IMG/VR virus record: IMGVR_UViG_3300047409_000726
Span: 1 to 64,000 of that record
Source: a virus
DNA length: 64,000 nucleotides
Direction: 5' to 3' (one strand)
The first letter of the stretch is position 1. Each line of letters opens with the position of its first letter. A program made the position numbers and the translations under genes. Below, in pieces: positions 57 through 11,776 of this stretch. A model generated the notes under the pieces. It was not told where the DNA came from. It saw only the letters and a list, made by a program, of their open reading frames with translations, and did no database searches.

Positions 57-3000
57 GTGGCTTCTATCCAGCCGAAGCAAATCCGCGCATCCCGACTGAA
101 ACAAGTCGGGGTGGCGGCCGGCATGATCCAGCCGAAACAGATTGAAGCGATTCTGCCGCTTCTGTCGATGCTCGATCAGACGCAATCGACAGGATCGGTC
201 GTGGCCTACGACTGTTTGCTCCTGACGGCGACGACGGACGACTCCGACGGCCGAGTGACAACCGGCGTCGATCTCTACGACGGCGTGACCCTCGTCAGCG
301 CAATGACCGAGGCGCCCGCCGGGACGTGGAACTACACCGTCGACAACGTCACGGCGGGTGCGCACAGCTACGTCGCTCGGAAAGTCTGGTCCGGGGGCAC
401 GGTCGACAGTCTTCCGGTCGCCCCGACAGCGCTCGCGGCTCTCGATCCATCGCAAATCACCACGGCCACTCTCGTCGCTTGGTACACGCCCAATTCGTTC
501 CAAATGAACCCGACGCTCTTCGGGACGAGAACGGTTACGGTCTCGGCGACAAGCGGTCTGAACGGAAGGACCGAGGGGCTACAGTTAGTCGTTCAAGCGA
601 CCGGCGTTCCTGGTACCGGAACCTTCAAGAGCAGCATCGACAACGGCGTAACCTTTCAAGAAGGTTCTCCTCAAACCATTCCGACGGGCGCCGGGACCTA
701 CGCCGTCCCGGGAACTGATTTCACGCTCACGTTCCAGCAAGCCGTTTCTTACACAGCGGCCGATGTCTACCGGTCCACGGCATCAAAATGGCTCGACACG
801 GTCGGCGCCTACCCGAACTCTACGAATAACCTCATCAACGACGCCTCGAGCGGCGGCGCCCAATCAAGACCGCGTTTCATTGCTCCGCCAACAGCAACCA
901 TCGGATCTACGGTCCTGCGCTTCGATGCGAACCTCGGCGCGCAAGCGTTCATGTGGTGCTCGGCCGGCTCGATCGCGACACTCGCGAGCGGCACCGACAA
1001 GAAGTTTTTCGTCGGCCTCGTTACAGACGTCCAACAGGCACAGATCCCCGCCATCGTTGCGCGACGTGACTTTTACGTATTCTCGAATCTCACCGACGTC
1101 GACCAACCTCGAATTTCCCTCGGCGTAAACCTCGCCTCAGGCGATCCAGAAGCGCTCTTCAGAGCAAATCGAGTGAGTGACGCGGGAGTAAACTCCGGAT
1201 TCAGTTCAGGTGCCGCAGCAGCCGCGGGGCTCTATTTCCTGGAAGACTCCTTCGACTCGCAGTTCCGAAGCCTAACCGCGAACGCCGCCGATCTCATCGG
1301 TGGCGACTCGGGTATTACGGCAGACGAAAGCGGCGCCACGATCACGACAACCCGCTTCGTCTTTGGCACAAACCAAGGACAATCGGGCAAGAGCAACGGA
1401 TCGACGATCGACGCCTCCGAGCTTTTCATCTTCGACAAGAAACCGACCTCTGAAGTCGAATGTTGGCAGTTGCGGGCCTACGTACTGGACTCGTACGCAA
1501 ATATCCCTCGTTGGAAGTGCGCGGCGCAGGTCCTTCCGCTCATCAGTTCGTTCGACGGTTGGGTGAAAAATCAGACGGCGACCTACGGGATCGCCACGAA
1601 CATGATCGACGATCCGGGTGCTCCAACGAGCATCCTGACAAGGTACGGCTACAGAGCTCCAAGAAAGAGCGACAACACGGCGTACCCTGGAAATTGGTAC
1701 CAAGGAAATTCCGGCGACTCGGCCGCCGAGCTCGACGTCTTTCGCGACCAGCAGATGATGCTCGGCGAGATCGGCGCCGTTCGAGAGATCCTGTGGTACC
1801 CGAACCGCGCGGACATCTCGGTCGGTGCTATCCCCGCGGTGTCGGACATCTACGATGCGAGCATTGCCAAATTCTTGGCCCTGTCCGAGCCGAACAGAAA
1901 CCTAGCGAAGATCACCCTACTGCTTCAATCGAACTGGGCCGCCTACGACGGAAACAGCCCCGGGACCTGGGGGAACTACACGGCATTCGTGAACTCGTGG
2001 GTCGCCCTGATGCTGCTCCCGCAGTATCAAAAGGTGACGCTCGGTGGGATCTCCAATCGTCCGGTGGTGGGCCTCTACTACACAGGAACGTCAACCGACT
2101 GGAACCTGAATCTCGCTCGCGTGACGACGCTGACCAACGCGATCACAGCCGCAGGTCTCGGGACGCCGGTCTACAAATTCTCGGGAACCGTGGACGCGCT
2201 GAGCGTCAGAGTCGCAGCGTCGAACACGATCGGTTGCCAATACTTTTCGGCCTACCTGCCGGGTCTAAGCCCGGGACACGTCGCGTACACGAACCTCATG
2301 AACGCCTGCTACACGGTCGACTTCCCAGCGAGCTTGAATGCCGCCAGGGCGTTTTCGTTAGCACACGACGTCGACAACCGTCCTAGAAACTCCTCTAACC
2401 CTTGGGCAGATTTTCCGACCTACACCGAACTCGAGCAATTCGAGCGCAACCGTTCGGCGCTCGCGAGATCGGCGACCAGGGCGAGTCCGAACGCCATGAC
2501 GAGCACGTACTCGGCCAATGAGGTCGACGAGGGCATGGTCTTTTTTCCGAGCGAGCAGACGATCGTTGCAGGCGTGAACACCCCGTCTCGTGGCATTTTC
2601 TTGGACGCGAAATCGAACGTTCGAAATGCCGTCCGAAACGGCGGGTTTCCGTCGACCTACACCGACACCTACATGGCGTGGAGCTTCAACGCTGCCGTCG
2701 GCGCGTCGCTTCCGGCCGGCTGGGCTCTGGTGCAGGATCTTTCAGGACCGTCAGGCGGCCTGACTGGCTCCGAACAGTACGCGGTTATCCGAAACACAAC
2801 GACGACGAATGCTCGGACCTGGACCGTCACGACGGTGGGATATCAAGTCTACGGAACCCTCGGTCCCGGTCTCGGCCACATCGGAGTGACGCTCGACGGA
2901 GGCGTGCAGATCGACATCAATCAAGACGACGGCGGCGGAACGACCCGGTACAACCAGCTCCTCTACGACTCAGGCGCACTTTCGAACGCCTCTCACACAC

Positions 3001-3065
3001 TCGCTGTCGCCCGGATCTCGGGGCAAGCCGAGTATGCAAAAGTGCGCGCGGAGAAAAACCGATGA
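57..3065 (+). CDS. Large fibre-like virion protein with lectin-like and possible glycosidase-like regions
   Basis: 1002 residues from GTG. The N-terminal ~130 residues look like a small beta domain. About residues 260-480 resemble a concanavalin-type jelly roll, ending in a segment on amino-acid changes of the kind [10 protein letters not shown]. Residues ~500-800 contain Trp/Tyr-rich alpha/beta sequence ([33 protein letters not shown]) reminiscent of GH99/WbsX-like barrels; this is a weak resemblance only and no catalytic residue is assigned. The C-terminal ~130 residues look like another beta domain. It overlaps the collagen-like gene by ATGA, and the pair probably forms part of a host-recognition fibre. 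Role is inferred from size, composition and neighbour. Confidence 0.7.
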
Positions 3066-3799
3066 TCGGGCCAGTCTGCAAAGGCGCCACCGGCCCCACG
3101 GGTCCGAGCGGCGGCCCGACAGGATCTACGGGGCCGACAGGATCGACGGGACCGACTGGTGTCACCGGACAGACAGGATCCAACGGTTCAACAGGGCCAA
3201 CCGGACCAACCGGACTCGCAGGAACACCTGGCGCAACAGGAGCAACAGGACCTACAGGACCTAGCGGTCCAACAGGCTCCGCCGGAACCGCGAGCACCGG
3301 AGCGACAGGCCCTACAGGACCGCAGTTCACGGGCGGCACCGTTCAAGCCACGAAGATCGCAACGAACACGTTCCTAACGAACACTCATGCAACCATCTGG
3401 GAGAACGTTACCGGCAGTGACTTCGCATACTCGGGCACCGGAGACTTCGCGCTCACGGCAGCCGGTTGCGTTCTCACTTACAACGGCGTGAGCGGTCGCA
3501 GCTTCTTGGTTATTTTGGGATGCGGCGTGGAGGGGCCAGGACTTACCCCCGCAGGAGTTTTTGGGATCGGCGTTTCCCTAAACGAAGATCTAGCCGGCAC
3601 GTCAGGAACTACAGACGCATCTGTCGCCGTAGGTGGAATGTTGGACGAGATGGCGATCGTGAACGGGAACGGATCAGCCACATCGCAGCGCAGAGTCACA
3701 TTGAATAACGGAGACACGTTGCGCCCTGTTTGCTTTCAAAATGACGGAAACAGAGATCTGCTCGTCGACGTGCTGTCTTTTTCCGTGATCCCGCAGTGA
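3062..3799 (+). CDS. Collagen-like fibre protein with C-terminal globular domain
   Basis: 245 residues. The start is ATG 3062, overlapping the previous stop as ATGA; the frame continues upstream but only as shadow sequence. Residues ~8-88 are Gly-X-Y triplets, mostly GPT, with two interruptions (GPSGGPTG and GTASTGATG). The remaining ~155 residues are beta-rich and resemble the C1q/TNF-like or jelly-roll trimerising heads found after phage collagen-like stalks. Expected to form a trimeric fibre. GPT triplets are the type whose Thr is O-glycosylated in Bacillus BclA, and glycosyltransferase genes converge on this gene from the other strand. Confidence 0.85.
3083..3324 (+). repeat. Collagen-coding 9-bp repeat tract
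   Basis: The DNA repeats units close to GGACCGACA/GGCCCTACA, each coding Gly-Pro-Thr or a variant. The tract keeps several long open frames in other phases, which are artefacts of the repeat. Confidence 0.85.
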
Positions 3800-3805
3800 A
3801 GAACC

Positions 3806-5875
3806 TCACGGCATCCACTGGATCTTCGACGTGTCGATCTCGCACCAGTGGCTCTCTCGCTCCTCAGCTCCGTAGGTCACGATGAGGTTCTTGCCGTATA
3901 AAACGGCGCCGGCTGCGTACTCGACGCCGTGATGGTGGAACGTGAACGCGCGTGACACCCTCGTCGGGAGCATCGTCTCGCCGTCGAGCTCGATGAACCG
4001 GTGCAGGTAGACGTTGTCGTTGTCCCGGTGAGCGACTTCATGGATCGACATGATCCAGGTTCCGTCCGGCATCAGGACAGGAGCCGTACCGCCCCTGTAA
4101 CGCGCCATCCTGAACGGCATCGTCTCTTTGATCTTTACCTTGCACCGCCCCGTCTCACCGTCCGTCACGATCACCGTGAAAGGTTCGTAACCGTAGATGA
4201 GATAGAGCTCCCCTTTCAAAGACCACGGAAGCCAATTCTTCTCGTACTCTTGCGTGCCTTCGTATTCGATCTCTTCGGCAAACTCGCCCGAAAGATCGTC
4301 ATGCAATCTCCCGATGACGACTCGGGACTTGTCGTCGCCGCTCGGGGTTTGACACGTCGTCGCCGTGAACCAGACTTTACCCGCGTGCACGTGCCAACGC
4401 TGATCTTCTAGACCCCAGATGCGCCCCTTGGGCCAACCCGCCGGGCAGCGTGCGGTCGAAAGGCGCCACGGGCCTTCAAGACCTCCTTCCGGCGTCCATG
4501 GCGCCCACACGTTCTCGGTCCGAATAATTTGGTCCTTGTGCCGAGCAACGAACCAGCGGCCACGTTCGTGGTTGTAATTGACGAGCCGAACGTTCACGAA
4601 GAGCTCGCCCTCGAATCGAACGATGGTCGGCGAAGACGTGAGGTACTCGGCAAGCTCACTCGTTGCGACGCCTGGCACATCCCCGTTCGTGTCGAACGTT
4701 CGCATCGAAACCGGCACGTCGAACCGGCCGCGCCGCACGACGGCGTCGTACTCTTGCGGCAAGTAATGGAGAAGGTTCCGAACAGAGTTCTCGTAACTCG
4801 CCCAAGCTAGCCCGGGAGTTCGAAGCACTGTTTCGCACGCCTCGTGCCCTTCGTCTTTTCGTCCGAGGTAGTAGGCCGTGACGCTGACCTCTTCAAGAGC
4901 TTGAGCCCGAACGTTCTGATCGACGAAGAGATCCTCACCCGTTGTCTCGCCAAATGGCTCGAGAGCCGTTTTCGCAAAACCGTACGCGGCGCGGTTTTTA
5001 CCTATCCCTCGCAAGTGCTTGGCGACCTCAACGAGCGGCTCCCCCCGTCGCCCGCTTTTCTCGGCAGCGTCGATGAGGCGCATGAGTCCCTCTTCGGTCT
5101 TGCCGACCCCCATGAGAGTTTTACCGAGCATGAGCTCTGCGTACCATCGCTCGCCTTCCCAGCCGCCTGCGGCCTGGCGCATGTCGAAGTACTTGACGGC
5201 CATGTAGTAGTAGGTTTGCGCGAGGTAGTACATCGCCCGAACGTTCTTCGGATCCTCCTCGAGCCGTCGGCGAAGCAGGCGCGCGTCGCGATCGTACTTG
5301 TCGCCCTTCGAGCCGCCGTCGTCACGATCATCGATCCAGAGCGAAAAGAGCTCGGACGCGGGCGCACGATCCGGGTTCGGAGCCCAGTACTCGTGTGTCG
5401 GCTCGCACGAGACCCAGTCAAAATCCATGCGACCAAGCCTCGTGTTCGGGTAGGCGAGCGAGTCCTGCTTTTGGATGAGCCGGTAGTGTGGGTCCCGGAG
5501 CATCGATTTTTCGAACGCCTTCTCGGCGACGAGCACCATGTCGGCGTCGAGGAAAAGCAAATAGGTCTTTTCGAGCTCCCACTTCTTCTCGTTCACCCAA
5601 AGCTTCGCCGCCTTCGACGCCCACGTGCGAGCCGTACCGAAATCGAACTCTCCGTAGGGCCAGCGAAAGGTGTTGCGCGTCATTCCGCCTTCTATCCAGC
5701 AAGGCGTTTCGCGTACCTTGGCCGCTTCGGCGATGATCTTCACCGTGCCGTCTGTCCCCCCAGTGTCGGAAACAACGACGGCGTCGACGAAGGGCAGCGC
5801 CGACTCGAGGCAACGCCCTATAACCTTCCCTTCGTTCTTCACGATCATGTTCAAGACGATCTTCGGCACAGTCAT
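3806..5875 (-). CDS. Three-part glycosyltransferase: GT2, TPR and GH130-like propeller
   Basis: 689 residues. The N-terminal ~180 residues are a GT-A family 2 glycosyltransferase: LNMIVKNEGKVIGRCLESA, VVVSDTGGTDGT, then the metal-binding LFLDADMVL. Residues ~215-380 are helical with TPR character (AMYYLAQTYYYM). Residues ~410-689 are beta-rich and read like the five-bladed propeller of GH130 mannoside phosphorylases: WGLEDQRW, EKNWLPW, RYRGGTAPVL, VEYAAGAVLYGKNLIVTYG. The last gene of a minus-strand cassette, overlapping the methyltransferase by ATGA and stopping six bases from the collagen-like gene. Likely builds or trims a glycan. Whether the propeller is catalytic or carbohydrate-binding is unknown. 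Confidence 0.85.
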   Translation of the reverse strand: MTVPKIVLNMIVKNEGKVIGRCLESALPFVDAVVVSDTGGTDGTVKIIAEAAKVRETPCWIEGGMTRNTFRWPYGEFDFGTARTWASKAAKLWVNEKKWELEKTYLLFLDADMVLVAEKAFEKSMLRDPHYRLIQKQDSLAYPNTRLGRMDFDWVSCEPTHEYWAPNPDRAPASELFSLWIDDRDDGGSKGDKYDRDARLLRRRLEEDPKNVRAMYYLAQTYYYMAVKYFDMRQAAGGWEGERWYAELMLGKTLMGVGKTEEGLMRLIDAAEKSGRRGEPLVEVAKHLRGIGKNRAAYGFAKTALEPFGETTGEDLFVDQNVRAQALEEVSVTAYYLGRKDEGHEACETVLRTPGLAWASYENSVRNLLHYLPQEYDAVVRRGRFDVPVSMRTFDTNGDVPGVATSELAEYLTSSPTIVRFEGELFVNVRLVNYNHERGRWFVARHKDQIIRTENVWAPWTPEGGLEGPWRLSTARCPAGWPKGRIWGLEDQRWHVHAGKVWFTATTCQTPSGDDKSRVVIGRLHDDLSGEFAEEIEYEGTQEYEKNWLPWSLKGELYLIYGYEPFTVIVTDGETGRCKVKIKETMPFRMARYRGGTAPVLMPDGTWIMSIHEVAHRDNDNVYLHRFIELDGETMLPTRVSRAFTFHHHGVEYAAGAVLYGKNLIVTYGAEERESHWCEIDTSKIQWMP

Positions 5876-6405
5876 TTCTTCATTCCCCAGAAGTAGAGAT
5901 CTTCATGTGTTTCTTCGAACCCGTGCGCCGCGAAAATCTCGCTCACGTTCAGCGCCGCGTACACGTCTGCGGCGAACAGGTTCCGATAGTAGCTCTCCCA
6001 ACCCGGGATGGCGCACGTCAGTGGCGACGAGTAAGTATCGGTTCGCACAGTCCCGTGCTCTTTCCTGTCTCCGCTTGCACACGTGAAAAGCAAAAGCCCA
6101 CCGCTCTTCAAGAGTCGAGCTGCCGCTTTCAAAGTTTCGGGCCAGTACTGATCGTGCTCGAGGCATTCGGTCGAGATGATCGTGTCGAAGCTCATCTCGC
6201 ACTCCGTCCATTTATGGAGAGGCGAGACAACGTCGACGTTCGGTCCCTCGCCTACGTCGATACCGACGTACACGCATCCCTCGAACAGGTAGCGATTGTT
6301 CCCGTTCACGTCGAGACTGCCAACATCGAGCACGCGCACGCCCTGAAACTTTTCCGGAAACTGCTCTTTCACCCGAAGACAAAAAGCTTTTTGTGCGTCA
6401 TGCAT
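5872..6405 (-). CDS. Class I SAM-dependent methyltransferase
   Basis: 177 residues. Motif I is VLDVGSLDVNG, the acidic residue ending strand 2 is in YVGIDVGEG, and the motif IV region is FDTIISTECLEHD followed by LLKSGGLLLFTCA. This is the Methyltransf_11 pattern. It lies between two glycosyltransferases and overlaps both (8 bp upstream, ATGA downstream), so O-methylation of a sugar is the natural guess. Substrate is not visible from sequence. Confidence 0.85.
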   Translation of the reverse strand: MHDAQKAFCLRVKEQFPEKFQGVRVLDVGSLDVNGNNRYLFEGCVYVGIDVGEGPNVDVVSPLHKWTECEMSFDTIISTECLEHDQYWPETLKAAARLLKSGGLLLFTCASGDRKEHGTVRTDTYSSPLTCAIPGWESYYRNLFAADVYAALNVSEIFAAHGFEETHEDLYFWGMKK

Positions 6406-7045
6406 CGACTGGGATCTCTTTCCCGTTGTAAGGAACGTCGAACAACTCGAGCCCGGGAGCTCCGCCCCACTTCTCGACGTACCGCTGCAAGTTGGTTGCG
6501 TACCAATCGAAGTGGCCTTCCATGTTCATGGCTCGACTCGTAGCCCAACCCTCGTGATGAATGGAAACCGGCAACTCTCTCCATTCGATACCAGCGAGCT
6601 TCATCCGTCGCTCGTAGTCTCGATCCTCGTAGTAAGCAGGAAAGAAACGTTCGTCGAAGTTCCCCACTTTGATCAAACACTCCGGGCGTAGCCCAAAGAG
6701 CGCGAAACCGAGACCGGAAACGAACACCTCTCCGCGCTCGAGTTCGCTAGAGAGCGCCTCGAAAGCGTTCGAGCCGAGCACGACGTCGTCGTTCGAAATG
6801 ACGACAGGCTCGTCTTTGCCGTGAGCGTATCTCAAAATCCGATTCCAGCTCGCGGCGACGCCGACGTTTCGACTAGGACGTTGGATCGCGATCCTTCTCG
6901 CAAGCGGGCCGTCACGCGGCGGCACGTACTGATTGCCGTTGTCGACGATGAAATATTCGCTCGGACGCACGCTGCCGCGCTCGGCAGAAACGATCAACTT
7001 CTCGAGCAGGTCGTACCTGTTGAGCACCGGAACACCGAGAATCAC
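6398..7045 (-). CDS. Family 2 glycosyltransferase (rhamnosyltransferase-like)
   Basis: 215 residues from GTG 7045. I chose this start because it overlaps the upstream stop as GTGA, has GAGAGG upstream, and begins right at the conserved first strand VILGVPVLNRYDLLEKL; the longer TTG start at 7072 is less likely. GT-A features: FIVDNGN, NVGVAASWN, the DxD-like VVISNDDVVLG, and FDERFFPAYYEDRDYERRM, typical of the rhamnosyl/GalNAc transferase branch. Likely transfers a sugar from a nucleotide donor within the same glycan pathway as its neighbours. Confidence 0.85.
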   Translation of the reverse strand: MILGVPVLNRYDLLEKLIVSAERGSVRPSEYFIVDNGNQYVPPRDGPLARRIAIQRPSRNVGVAASWNRILRYAHGKDEPVVISNDDVVLGSNAFEALSSELERGEVFVSGLGFALFGLRPECLIKVGNFDERFFPAYYEDRDYERRMKLAGIEWRELPVSIHHEGWATSRAMNMEGHFDWYATNLQRYVEKWGGAPGLELFDVPYNGKEIPVDA

Positions 7046-7224
7046 GACACCGACCTCTCGGATTTGATCCAATAGCGAATCGCTTCAGCGACGCCTTCAG
7101 CGAGAGATGTCCGTCGTTCGGCGCACCGCACGCGAAGCGCAGTCGCCAGATCCGCGGGCACGCGAACGTGAATGCGTTCCAACCCCTCGTCTGCCGAAAG
7201 CTTCTTTCTACGACGCGACGCCAT
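7042..7224 (-). CDS. Ribbon-helix-helix DNA-binding protein
   Basis: 60 residues; start ATG 7224 is inside a longer open frame whose upstream part is shadow sequence. After a basic N-terminus comes RIHVRVPADLATALRVRCAE and a second helix ending AIRYWIK, the CopG/Arc pattern of one strand and two helices. First gene of the glycosyltransferase cassette and coupled to it, so it probably autoregulates that operon. Confidence 0.7.
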   Translation of the reverse strand: MASRRRKKLSADEGLERIHVRVPADLATALRVRCAERRTSLAEGVAEAIRYWIKSERSVS

Positions 7225-8179: not shown

Positions 8180-8739
8180 TCTACTCACTGAAAGACCTTC
8201 AAGATCTGGCCGCTGCAACTGGATTTCCAGATCCAGTGCTCGCAGCAGCGGTAGCGATGGCTGAGAGCGGAGGCAACCCGTGCGCACAAGGTGATCCGAA
8301 CATCGGCGTGCACCCGTGCAACAGGCTCAACGGCACTAGCACGAGCTTCGGTCTTTGGCAGATCAACACGACATGGAACCCGCAGTACGACCCGCTGAGC
8401 TTGCTTAATCCGCAGTACAACGCACGCGCGGCGCTGGCGGTTTCTAACGGCGGCGTCACATGGAAACCGTGGTCTACGTTCAAGAACGAATCTTATCTGA
8501 AGTGGTACTCGCACGTCGTCTATCCGCCCCACGGGGGGCCTCCGATCATCCCGCAACCGGTGACACCACCGATTCCAAGAGAAAAGAACGGAAGGGTGGT
8601 GGCCGCAACGATCGGCGCCGCCGCAATCGTCGCCGCGGCGGGTTACGGCGCCTACAGGTGGCTCTCCGGGCGCCCCGAGCCGCGACCGCTTCCGCCACCG
8701 GAGCCGACCTACCCCATGTTCAGGAGGTACGAGCCGTGA
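8176..8739 (+). CDS. Lysozyme-like lytic transglycosylase with C-terminal membrane segment
   Basis: 187 residues. Residues ~12-110 follow the SLT/lysozyme-like fold: AAVAMAESGGNP with the catalytic Glu, then STSFGLWQINTTW and a NPQYNARAAL segment. A Pro-rich linker is followed by a transmembrane helix near residue 145 and a Pro-rich tail. The enzyme would cut peptidoglycan glycan strands. The membrane anchor and neighbours suggest a virion-associated or spanning lysis protein and not a free endolysin. Confidence 0.85.
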   Translation: MIYSLKDLQDLAAATGFPDPVLAAAVAMAESGGNPCAQGDPNIGVHPCNRLNGTSTSFGLWQINTTWNPQYDPLSLLNPQYNARAALAVSNGGVTWKPWSTFKNESYLKWYSHVVYPPHGGPPIIPQPVTPPIPREKNGRVVAATIGAAAIVAAAGYGAYRWLSGRPEPRPLPPPEPTYPMFRRYEP

Positions 8740-9158
8740 ACACGTTGCTCGTCGTCTCACTTGGAGCTTTGGCGGCGTCCTCAGGCATCTTTCTATTGAG
8801 TCGTAGGGCGGAAGCTCGAGATCTCTTGCCTGCGCCGGTACCGCCAGTGCCTCCGTCGCCCACCTACGGCGAAAGCACCGTCGTACAGCTCTCAGTTCCA
8901 CCAGGTTGGCGTCGCGTAAGCGGCTCCGAGGTCGCTGCATTACCGGAGCTTTCGGTTCGTGCGAACGTACTTCGATCGACGCCTGGCTTCACTTCGATGC
9001 AATACGGAACGCTCGCTCCGTTCAACGCCAGTGACGGCAAAACTTACGCGACGTGGATCGAACAGCACTATCACCCACCGGGCGGCGAGACACGACCGTG
9101 GGGTTACCATCACGGCGTCACGATTCTCGCAAATTCGTTACTAGCCGAATGGTTTTGA
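8736..9158 (+). CDS. Small membrane-anchored protein with exported domain
   Basis: 140 residues from GTG 8736, with AGGAGG eight bases upstream and GTGA overlap. An N-terminal helix (residues ~3-22) is followed by a Pro-rich linker and a domain starting PPGWRRVSGSEVAALPELS. The latter resembles the protein at 58604-59017 (GWR..., LS.RA..L, then a repeated Gly/Tyr pattern), in which the membrane helix is at the other end. Function unknown. Confidence 0.75.
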   Translation: MNTLLVVSLGALAASSGIFLLSRRAEARDLLPAPVPPVPPSPTYGESTVVQLSVPPGWRRVSGSEVAALPELSVRANVLRSTPGFTSMQYGTLAPFNASDGKTYATWIEQHYHPPGGETRPWGYHHGVTILANSLLAEWF

Positions 9159-9167
9159 GAGGACACC

Positions 9168-10619
9168 ATGCACGTACAACGCACATCGCAAGTTTCGCTG
9201 GCGCTCGGGTGGGATTTCGGAGCGCTCGCGTTCGGCGATCTCAGCTTCACGGAGCTCGGGGTGGGCGCCGAGCGCCAGTCTCGAGCAGCACAATGCGCTG
9301 GCCTGCCGACAGAGAAACAATGCCGAAGCATCCTGCCGCCGGGACAAGAACTCAGACAAGGTGAGAAGCTCGTGTCTCCGAACGGTAAGTACATGGCGAT
9401 CCTTCAAACCGATTCTAACTTCGTCATCTACAACGGCAGCCAACCACTTCGCGCGTGGGGGCAGAACGGCACGATCCGCGCGTTCATGCAAACCGATGGG
9501 GTGTTTGCTCTCTACGGTCCGGGTGATTCGCTCAAGTGGGATTCGGGAACTCAAGGCAACGGAGGCGCGCGCCTCGTCATGCAAGACGACGCGAATCTGG
9601 TCGTCTACGCACCGAACGGCCGCGACCTCTGGAGCAGCGAGACCAATGGTCCCCGCGTATACGAACCGAGCCGCAGCATCATCGACGTGATCACAGCTCC
9701 GACGCGATCTGCCGCAGAGGCAGCGATCTACGCGGCCACCGGACAGCACGTCACGGTCACATCGGTCAGCGTGAGCCCTGCGCAGATCGCTGCTGCCGTG
9801 CAAGCCGTCATGTCGTTCGTGCCCGTCATCGGCACAGGCATCAACGCGGCGATCGCCGCCGGTACCGCGCTCGCGAACGGCGAGAACATCACCGACGCAA
9901 TCGTAGCGGGTGCGAAGAACGCTCTGCCCGGCGGCCCACTAGCTTCTAAAGGTTTCGATATCGCCTACGGAGCTGTCAAAGCGATTGCGAACGGTCAGCC
10001 TCTCGATGAGATCGCACTCGCCGCGGCGCGAGAAGCGCTCCCAAGCGACGCAGCGAAAAAGGCGTTCGACATCGGCACCGCCATCGCACACGGTCAGAAC
10101 GTGCAGCAGGCGCTCGTTAGCGAGGCTGCGAGTTTTGCCGCCGGGCAACTCGACAAGATCGCGCTCCCGCCGATGCTCACCGAGGTTGCGCGGTCGATAC
10201 CGCCCGAAGCAACGCGCGTCGCGACGGCGATCGTCAATCACCCCGAGCTCGCCAATCTAGCGGCATCCGAAATCGCAAGACGACTAGGAACGAACGAGGT
10301 GACGGTCAACACCGCTTCGAAGGCCGTAACGGCCGCGAAGAACTCGAGCGCAATGGCCGAGCTCGCCAAGCTCACGCCGCAGCAGCAAAAAGATCTCGTC
10401 GCCTACATCGCGCTCGCACGGCTTACCCCCGATCAGCAAAAGCAACTCGCCGAGTATATCAAAGCGAAAACGAAGCCGAAGCCGCTCATGAGCGTTCACG
10501 AGACGACGCCCGCGAGAAAACCGGTCGTAGCGACCGCACCGAAAGCCGCCCCGAAACCAACGGTTACTGCGAGGGCCGGAGTTTATCCGCCGTACCCGAA
10601 GATGGGCGCGCACGTCTAG
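9168..10619 (+). CDS. B-lectin domain protein with Ala-rich repeat region; probable virion protein
   Basis: 483 residues. Residues ~60-165 form a bulb-type mannose-binding lectin domain with two QxDxNxVxY sites: LQTDSNFVIY and MQDDANLVVY; a third (MQTDGVFALY) is degenerate. Residues ~195-350 are hydrophobic and Ala-rich with a recurring unit of the form A...ALP...A.K.FD...A.A.G....A, repeated about three times, as seen in some phage internal or ejection proteins. The tail is Lys/Pro-rich. Sits at the end of the lysis-like cluster. Likely carbohydrate-binding and membrane-active; this is an inference. Confidence 0.75.
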   Translation: MHVQRTSQVSLALGWDFGALAFGDLSFTELGVGAERQSRAAQCAGLPTEKQCRSILPPGQELRQGEKLVSPNGKYMAILQTDSNFVIYNGSQPLRAWGQNGTIRAFMQTDGVFALYGPGDSLKWDSGTQGNGGARLVMQDDANLVVYAPNGRDLWSSETNGPRVYEPSRSIIDVITAPTRSAAEAAIYAATGQHVTVTSVSVSPAQIAAAVQAVMSFVPVIGTGINAAIAAGTALANGENITDAIVAGAKNALPGGPLASKGFDIAYGAVKAIANGQPLDEIALAAAREALPSDAAKKAFDIGTAIAHGQNVQQALVSEAASFAAGQLDKIALPPMLTEVARSIPPEATRVATAIVNHPELANLAASEIARRLGTNEVTVNTASKAVTAAKNSSAMAELAKLTPQQQKDLVAYIALARLTPDQQKQLAEYIKAKTKPKPLMSVHETTPARKPVVATAPKAAPKPTVTARAGVYPPYPKMGAHV

Positions 10620-10752
10620 GTGTCTCGGCGCTGTTGATCGCTTCCGAGCAAGACGCGCAGTAACCGGGCCTGAGTAGAGGATTCGCCCCCACGTGCGATC
10701 CCACGATCTGTAGCCGGTGACACCGTTTGCAAATCGACCGTTCCTTCGACAT
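10564..10752 (-). CDS. Small putative zinc-binding protein
   Basis: 62 residues with a CxxC (ICKRCH) and a second CxxC (YCASC) about 20 residues later, a plausible zinc ribbon. It starts 23 bp from the divergent gene at 10776 and its 3' end runs 56 bp into the lectin gene on the other strand. The Cys spacing is the main support. Confidence 0.5.
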   Translation of the reverse strand: MSKERSICKRCHRLQIVGSHVGANPLLRPGYCASCSEAINSAETPRRARPSSGTADKLRPSQ

Positions 10753-10763
10753 CGTCGTTCGGT

Positions 10764-10769
10764 TATTCT
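10764..10769 (+). promoter_or_regulatory. -10-like hexamer TATTCT before ATG 10776
   Basis: TATTCT ends six bases before the start codon, the same arrangement as upstream of 14466. No convincing -35 or Shine-Dalgarno sequence is seen. Confidence 0.4.
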
Positions 10770-10775
10770 ACACGC

Positions 10776-10955
10776 ATGGCTCGGAAGAAGCACGATCTGC
10801 CCGGCTGGTTCCCGTTCGCGATCGCGGCCGCAGCCGCCACGGCACTTTTCGCGGGCGCTCGATCGGGCTGGCGCCTCTCCGGCGATCAACCGAAGACCGA
10901 GCCGCCGCCCCCGCAAGGAGTCAACGACTGGCACGGTGTCGGCGCGTTCAGTTGA
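10776..10955 (+). CDS. 59-residue single-pass membrane protein
   Basis: Begins MARKKHDLPGWFPFAIAAAA, has one transmembrane helix (residues ~12-30), then a Pro-rich tail ending GVGAFS. It follows the pattern of the other small anchored proteins near 8176-9158. Function unknown; could be a holin- or spanin-like component. Confidence 0.6.
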   Translation: MARKKHDLPGWFPFAIAAAAATALFAGARSGWRLSGDQPKTEPPPPQGVNDWHGVGAFS

Positions 10956-10958
10956 GAA

Positions 10959-11081
10959 TCACTTCGCCGGTTTCTTCTTGCCCAATATCGTCGTGCGCTT
11001 CGGCTTGCGAGGCGGCGACGCGGGTTGTTTGCGAATTCGATCAAACCAGAATCGACCAGACTTTACTTTTGACTTTGCCAT
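10959..11081 (-). CDS. 40-residue very basic peptide
   Basis: Starts MAKSKVKSGRFWFDRIRK and is over a third Lys/Arg. AAGGAG lies 11 bases before ATG 11081, and that SD is formed by the end of the upstream gene. Last gene of the minus-strand chain. A nucleic-acid-binding role is a guess from charge. Confidence 0.55.
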   Translation of the reverse strand: MAKSKVKSGRFWFDRIRKQPASPPRKPKRTTILGKKKPAK

Positions 11082-11089
11082 TTTTCAGA

Positions 11090-11452
11090 TCACTCCTTGT
11101 CGTCGAACGTGCAACTCCACCCATCTTCACTCATCGTCATCTTTCGTTTCGATAGCGGCAACGCTTCCCATTTGCCATCCTTGAGCAAGTACCGATGGTC
11201 ATGTCCTTCGGTACACACGCCCTCCAAGTAGATGCCGCTGGAGATGACTCCGTCGGGTCCGGTGAGAGATTGAAGCGATACCGACGGAGCCACGGGTGCG
11301 GTGAACTCCCTGTGCGTGCCAGGACTGCCGTCGTGCGGCAACGTCCACTCGTTCCATTTTCCTTCCGTTGCCCACGCCGCGCCGCACGGGGCTAGCTCCG
11401 GCGCAGGAGGGCCGAGTTTACTGAGGTCGAAGTCGTCGTTCACGGTTCCCAT
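11090..11452 (-). CDS. Conserved-looking hypothetical protein
   Basis: 120 residues, acidic, with scattered Cys/His (PCGAAW, VCTEGHDHRYLL, WSCTFDDKE) that might bind a metal. Overlaps the upstream gene by 13 bp. No family recognised. Confidence 0.65.
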   Translation of the reverse strand: MGTVNDDFDLSKLGPPAPELAPCGAAWATEGKWNEWTLPHDGSPGTHREFTAPVAPSVSLQSLTGPDGVISSGIYLEGVCTEGHDHRYLLKDGKWEALPLSKRKMTMSEDGWSCTFDDKE

Positions 11453-11628
11453 TCTTGCACCTCTGTCAGCGCCATTTGAAACTCGAAAAACCAGTAGTGC
11501 GCGCCTGCAAAATGAAGTTCGTTGAGAACCTGCAAAGCCTTGAACAAGTAATACGTCACGTCACACAACGTGAGCGGATAGCCGCACCCATCGCAAAAGT
11601 GCTTGTCGGTATAGAGAGAATTAGGCAT
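11440..11628 (-). CDS. Small Cys-containing protein, unknown
   Basis: 62 residues starting MPNSLYTDKHFCDGCGYPLT. The CxxC near the start is followed by an aromatic helix. Overlaps both neighbours, fitting the coupled operon. Function unknown. Confidence 0.6.
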   Translation of the reverse strand: MPNSLYTDKHFCDGCGYPLTLCDVTYYLFKALQVLNELHFAGAHYWFFEFQMALTEVQEWEP

Positions 11629-11776
11629 CGCGCTGGGCCTTTCTCCTCATTTTCTCGCCCCGTCTCACCATTCTCCGCAGGCGCGACGGAAGTGTCCACA
11701 GGTACCACTTGCAGCGCAATAGATCGATCCACGCGACGACGTCGAGCCAGAGCCAGCGCAAGCGTTTACTCACCAT
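11621..11776 (-). CDS. 51-residue basic Trp/Leu-rich protein
   Basis: Begins MVSKRLRWLWLDVVAWIDLL and ends in a strongly basic stretch. It overlaps the upstream gene by 11 bp and the downstream ATG by 8 bp (ATGCCTAA). Amphipathic or membrane-associated by appearance. Supported by its fit in the overlap chain. Confidence 0.55.
   Translation of the reverse strand: MVSKRLRWLWLDVVAWIDLLRCKWYLWTLPSRLRRMVRRGEKMRRKAQRDA

Follow-up and report, generated by a model that had tools for sequence, protein, structure and literature searches.

A minus-strand open reading frame of a phage contig (positions 3806-5875, with an ATG start and a stop codon at 3806-3808) encodes a protein of 689 residues in which a GT2 glycosyltransferase domain, a TPR-like region and a GH130-like propeller follow one another from the N- to the C-terminus. 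It is a genuine gene with three modules in one chain. The window analysed here comprises 64,000 nucleotides of a virus record of 80,264 bases. This order of modules had been proposed in the first-pass annotation, and the Pfam matches, the profile searches, a structural model and its fold matches all agreed with it. The fusion is a real case of known parts in a new combination with an unnamed propeller family, and it is worth an assay. Searches of the open-access PMC literature turned up neither a report of a fusion of this kind nor one of a GH130-like family in viruses. The interpretation that we favour, tentatively and with rather less than even confidence, is that the protein is a bifunctional phage enzyme that builds a glycan in two steps.

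Seven of ten further proteins of the window matched entries in a PHROG scan, and three had no match. The types matched were phage helicase, DNA polymerase, exonuclease, primase, DNA methyltransferase or endolysin, so that the window was taken to be a phage contig. A gene for a collagen-like protein of 245 residues (3062-3799, plus strand; PF01391, 32.9 bits, cut-off 27.2) is convergent to the fusion gene, with 6 bases between their ends. Upstream of the fusion gene on the minus strand, a methyltransferase gene (5872-6405; PF13489, 3e-12; phrog_32762, 5.9e-50) overlaps its start by 4 bases and is in turn overlapped by 8 bases by a second GT2 gene (6398-7072, minus strand; PF00535, 25.5 bits, cut-off 23.3; phrog_29879, 8.6e-27). 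The protein encoded directly upstream of the collagen-like gene (57-3065, plus strand, 1002 residues) matched nothing in Pfam at E values up to 1 or in PHROG at values up to 0.1, and judged by its position is possibly a tail or fibre protein.

The fusion was compared with a phage relative, L002, that is 81% identical overall. The dN/dS ratios, derived from Jukes-Cantor values, were approximately 0.12 for the GT2 domain, 0.09 for the TPR-like region and 0.14 for the propeller, indicating purifying selection on each of the three.

The GT2 domain spans approximately residues 1-185 (5321-5875, minus strand). Residues 10-114 scored just above the PF00535 cut-off (24.6 bits vs 23.3), and the DxD-type metal and nucleotide-sugar motif, Asp110-Ala-Asp112, was present and invariant across four fusions. 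The TPR-like helical region that follows, approximately residues 186-385 (4721-5320, minus strand), was recognised by a profile of four relatives; in the fusion protein alone no TPR model exceeded its cut-off (TPR_17: 14.8 bits vs 24.4). The profile of the four fusion N-termini matched many TPR structures, and TPR were also found in the relatives L114, L125 and L126. Over profile positions 4-252 the same profile matched SunS (7msp) with an E value of 1.6e-9, a match that spans both the GT2 and the TPR parts, which occur in the same order in SunS and its structural relative 7msk. In contrast to the fusion, those solved chains (335-430 residues) have no propeller, and the score of the fusion against the SunS equivalog model TIGR04195 of NCBIfam was 24.8 bits, below the cut-off of 350. 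SunS is a peptide glycosyltransferase. Another parallel is FlmG, which contains TPR and is not known to carry a propeller. FlmG is a modular glycosyltransferase of flagellin (PMC7591256), and like the fusion it would be a modular protein glycosyltransferase, with a part that chooses the substrate.

The propeller, residues 382-689 as modelled (3809-4732, minus strand), was far less conspicuous in sequence searches. Neither Pfam, PF04041 (GH130) included, nor NCBIfam gave a match for it at E values up to 10, in searches in which the HMMER filters drop most weak matches. There was no PHROG match below E 0.1 (the best was 0.21), and neither a phmmer search of the PDB nor a search of plasmids returned any match. 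The search of phage records gave a single match, the first link of the propeller to another protein: a single-domain protein of Actinomycetia phage DSL-LC01 that is annotated as a beta-mannosyltransferase (27.5% identity over 31% of the length, E 1e-3). Propeller profiles searched against the PDB gave weak GH130 matches only (7fip, E 0.41 and 0.081), and adenosine kinase matches of one such profile (E 0.49-0.77), made through the EKNW stretch, were regarded as fortuitous. For one stand-alone relative a match to GH43 was recorded below threshold (PF04616, E 0.02, 14.7 bits, cut-off 32.2). The family is unnamed in the libraries searched, and the component parts of the fusion are of known kinds.

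A model of the full-length protein built from two sequences was of no use (pLDDT 38.3), and the propeller was therefore modelled by itself. The AlphaFold2 model of the propeller from 61 sequences had a pLDDT of 86.5 and a pTM of 0.87. The top-ranked Foldseek matches were GH130 enzymes (3qc2, 7fip and 4kmi), the best match in the PDB being 3qc2 (BACOVA_03624) with an E value of 5.3e-8. The best VIA match was RaMP1 (5ay9; Z 24.4, rmsd 3.2, 282 aligned residues), and the titles of ranks 1-21 (Z 24.4 to 21.1) were mostly mannoside phosphorylases, a mannoside synthase or GH130. The titles of four entries among these ranks (3r67, 3taw, 1vkd and 4onz), which belong to GH130, name a putative or predicted glycosidase. 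The GH43 enzymes began at Z 19.7 and the GT108 mannosyltransferases/phosphorylases MPT-1, MPT-2 and MPT-4 of Leishmania lay at Z 18.1-19.2 (6q4y: Z 19.2, rmsd 3.4, 255 residues). Placement of the C-terminal part in an unrelated fold, which the first-pass annotation had named as fatal to its proposal, did not occur; GH130 was the best match. In a comparison that uses no structure, hhalign of the 61-row propeller profile with 15 GH130 sequences from Chloroflexota genomes gave 92.1% in global and 89.5% in local mode. The local controls gave at most 4.1% in 20 column-shuffled alignments, 0.2% with the reversed alignment and 0.0% with the GT2-TPR profile, so the likeness of the propeller to GH130 is above chance. 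The model confirmed a GH130-type five-bladed fold, the number of blades being taken from the GH130 match and not from a separate count.

The propeller thus shares with GH130 its whole-propeller fold, a GxED motif with the catalytic aspartate and profile-profile similarity. It differs in having only 10-15% identity, no PF04041 match, its own invariant EKNW and RG motifs, and an attached GT2-TPR half. The likeness to GT108 is one of fold, with 11-12% identity in the fold matches, and the listed GT108 chains have no GT2-TPR half. MPT-2 is a GDP-Man-dependent mannosyltransferase of GT108, and GT108 illustrates the use of a GH130-like fold for synthesis (PMC8950772). The order of the fold matches bears on an alternative that we consider unlikely, in which the propeller, as a phosphorylase or hydrolase, would trim back or recycle what the GT2 half makes: its nearest solved fold relatives are GH130 phosphorylases and beta-mannosidases, which rank above GT108 (Z 24.4 vs 19.2). 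True GH130 domains are also found fused to a transferase. One open frame of a Chloroflexota genome (L153, 1-2250) resembles the fusion in joining a transferase to a propeller, but it is bacterial and consists of a GT4 and a true PF04041 domain. On the other hand, the propeller family occurs in synthetic neighbourhoods, with GT2 and methyltransferase genes, which argues against trimming or recycling.

The conserved pocket bears on whether the propeller is catalytic. The motifs and residues noted in the propeller are GLED with Asp491, EKNW (545-548), Arg594, His612 and Glu652. The catalytic aspartate of GH130, singled out in the first-pass annotation as the residue to look for, is present: hhalign set the propeller GLED on the GH130 GIEDPR and thereby equated it with Asp491, and the GxED aspartate was conserved in all 60 rows of the 61-row alignment that have a residue there. 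The equivalent D142N mutant of a GH130 enzyme is inactive (PMC4599007), and the PDB title of 6q4z names MPT-2 D94N as inactive. Lys546, Asn547, Trp548, Arg594, Gly595, His612, Tyr623 and Glu652 were invariant in all 61 rows, and the invariance of the pocket positions extends over stand-alone and fused members alike.

Two residues of the fusion depart from the family. Residue 415 is Ser, vs Asn in 58 of the 61 rows, and residue 672 is Glu, vs Asp in 57; these changes were confined to the fusions and L030. Motif order and spacing tentatively equate Asn74, Arg89, Lys199 and Asp363 of BT3780 with residues 415, 430, 546 and 672, so mapped that positions 415 and 672 would belong to the -1 subsite of GH130. 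The EKNW motif was not set by hhalign on the GH130 NKD motif. In GH130 phosphorylases the phosphate site consists of three basic residues, and hhalign placed His612 on the conserved His, while Arg594 was two columns away from the GH130 Lys; both are tentative candidates for phosphate binding. In GH130 hydrolases a pair of Glu residues replaces the basic residues (PMC4599007), whereas Arg594 and His612 are invariant, which speaks against a trimming hydrolase as far as their tentative equivalence holds.

The departures at Ser415 and Glu672 and the unsure mapping of the phosphate site count against a catalytic, synthetic propeller. The two substitutions off the family consensus would suit a propeller without catalysis of its own, serving to bind the glycan or to position the acceptor, and accessory domains are common on transferases. 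We nevertheless regard a purely non-catalytic role as improbable, even more so than trimming, since the GxED aspartate and eight further positions show little or no variation, beyond the needs of binding alone. A catalytic propeller working in the synthetic direction is favoured over a passive module by the conserved pocket, the purifying selection and the repeated pairing with transferases. The first-pass annotation had suggested a built-in processing or binding step; the conserved pocket and the repeated pairing with several glycosyltransferase families appear to fit a second synthetic step better.

Scans of viral contigs for the propeller gave 21 loci at first. A wider alignment raised this to 124 relatives out of 183 pattern matches, and 80 of the relatives were retained. 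The open frames of 52 of these 80 were measured and had 290-399 residues from stop to stop, which corresponds roughly to a propeller without further domains. The propeller also occurs in two Synechococcus phage records. The stand-alone phage propellers OQ999401, OR032571 and PQ898602, annotated as beta-mannosyltransferase or 'MGP protein', belong to the same family but are single domains, 20-27% identical to the fusion propeller; the beta-mannosyltransferase label in two phage records is the depositor's annotation. The viral fold library also held giant-virus proteins of 430-1300 residues that matched the propeller with E values of 1e-7 to 1e-19, several of them unnamed and some named sugar or LicD transferases. 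The fold search of viral models listed proteins of Pithovirus, Solivirus (1279 residues, under the name fucosyltransferase) and Indivirus (1297 residues, with a name referring to LicD).

The complete GT2-TPR-propeller arrangement was found in three further phage lineages: L002, with its near-copy L003; L011/L030, 41% identical to the fusion; and L114, 41% identical in the N-terminal part and 38% in the propeller, in which the GT2 domain was below the Pfam cut-off (19.2 bits vs 23.3). Beside the L030 fusion gene lie a gene for a second, divergent propeller (10610-11662) and one for a protein with an HtrL_YibB match (8324-10108). A Chloroflexi MAG (G001) had two genes in the opposite order, with the propeller first and then GT2 and TPR, and a third in which the propeller is followed by GT25. 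The idea that the propeller is confined to phages was dropped once these genes were found. In a survey of the phylum the propeller was present in 1 of 301 Chloroflexi genomes, G001 itself, compared with PF04041 in 35 of 101 genomes of the same phylum, and a scan of genome contigs with the fusion alignment confirmed none of 38 pattern matches as relatives. In contig 94 of G001 (L127, 19-2910) a neighbouring frame of 963 residues has a Methyltransf_24 domain and, on visual inspection, a stretch resembling a degraded propeller that lacks the GxED motif.

A tree of 39 propellers placed the four phage fusions on one side of a branch with support 91/100, which is not one of the starred forks. The three Chloroflexi genes lay elsewhere in the tree (90/73), with the second propeller of L030 among them. 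The opposite domain orders and the tree suggest that the propeller has been joined to transferases at least twice independently. A fold known chiefly for breaking mannosides is represented here by an unnamed, virus-rich family that was apparently joined to glycosyltransferases at least twice and in differing orders, and pairing in both orders is unusual.

If the protein is the two-step glycan-building enzyme favoured above, the GT2-TPR half would likely take a first sugar from a nucleotide-sugar donor and attach it to a protein bound by the TPR part. With moderate likelihood, by analogy with GT108, the propeller would then work in the synthetic direction and add a second sugar, probably beta-linked and of the mannose type, by a single-displacement mechanism in which Asp491 takes part in the proton relay. 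The neighbouring methyltransferase and the second GT2 might modify the same glycan, and the acceptor might be the adjacent collagen-like protein; these last two steps are guesses from gene order.

The collagen-like neighbour is favoured as a putative acceptor. Collagen-like genes were near three of the four fusions, and the neighbourhoods of L002 and L114 contain them together with a GT2-methyltransferase gene. Against this acceptor, collagen-like repeats were not found in L011 or L030, and such repeats were near only 12 of 80 stand-alone loci, a count from short flanks with no background rate. With the same chemistry, the acceptor could instead be a host surface polysaccharide, so modified as to exclude other phages, or the phage DNA. 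Such roles have been proposed for phage glycosyltransferases in papers on aquatic phages (PMC10202952 and PMC7029224). We hold this to be possible yet doubtful, because the likeness of the GT2-TPR half to SunS suggests a peptide acceptor and a collagen-like gene accompanies three of the four fusions; it is an alternative to the last step only and otherwise overlaps the two-step scheme.

A broader proposal, which we advance as speculative and put slightly lower still, is that the propeller founds a new inverting glycosyltransferase family of the GH130/GT108 fold in phages, giant viruses and some bacteria, that it supplies a modular second step to the GT2, GT25 or other transferase to which it has been joined in either order, and that here it would attach a sugar of the beta-mannose type to collagen-like fibres of the phage. 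Glycosyltransferases have two classical folds. If the propeller synthesises, it would represent a viral transferase family built on neither of them, and would offer a testable route by which phages glycosylate proteins such as their own fibres.

Elsewhere in the window, a protein of 483 residues (9168-10619, plus strand) has, by eye, QxDxNxVxY-like stretches (QTDSNFVIY and MQDDANLVVY), which we take to resemble the bulb-type mannose-binding lectin motif. A Pfam scan at E values up to 1 did not return the bulb-type mannose-binding lectin family for this protein, which matched phrog_19296, an entry of unknown function.
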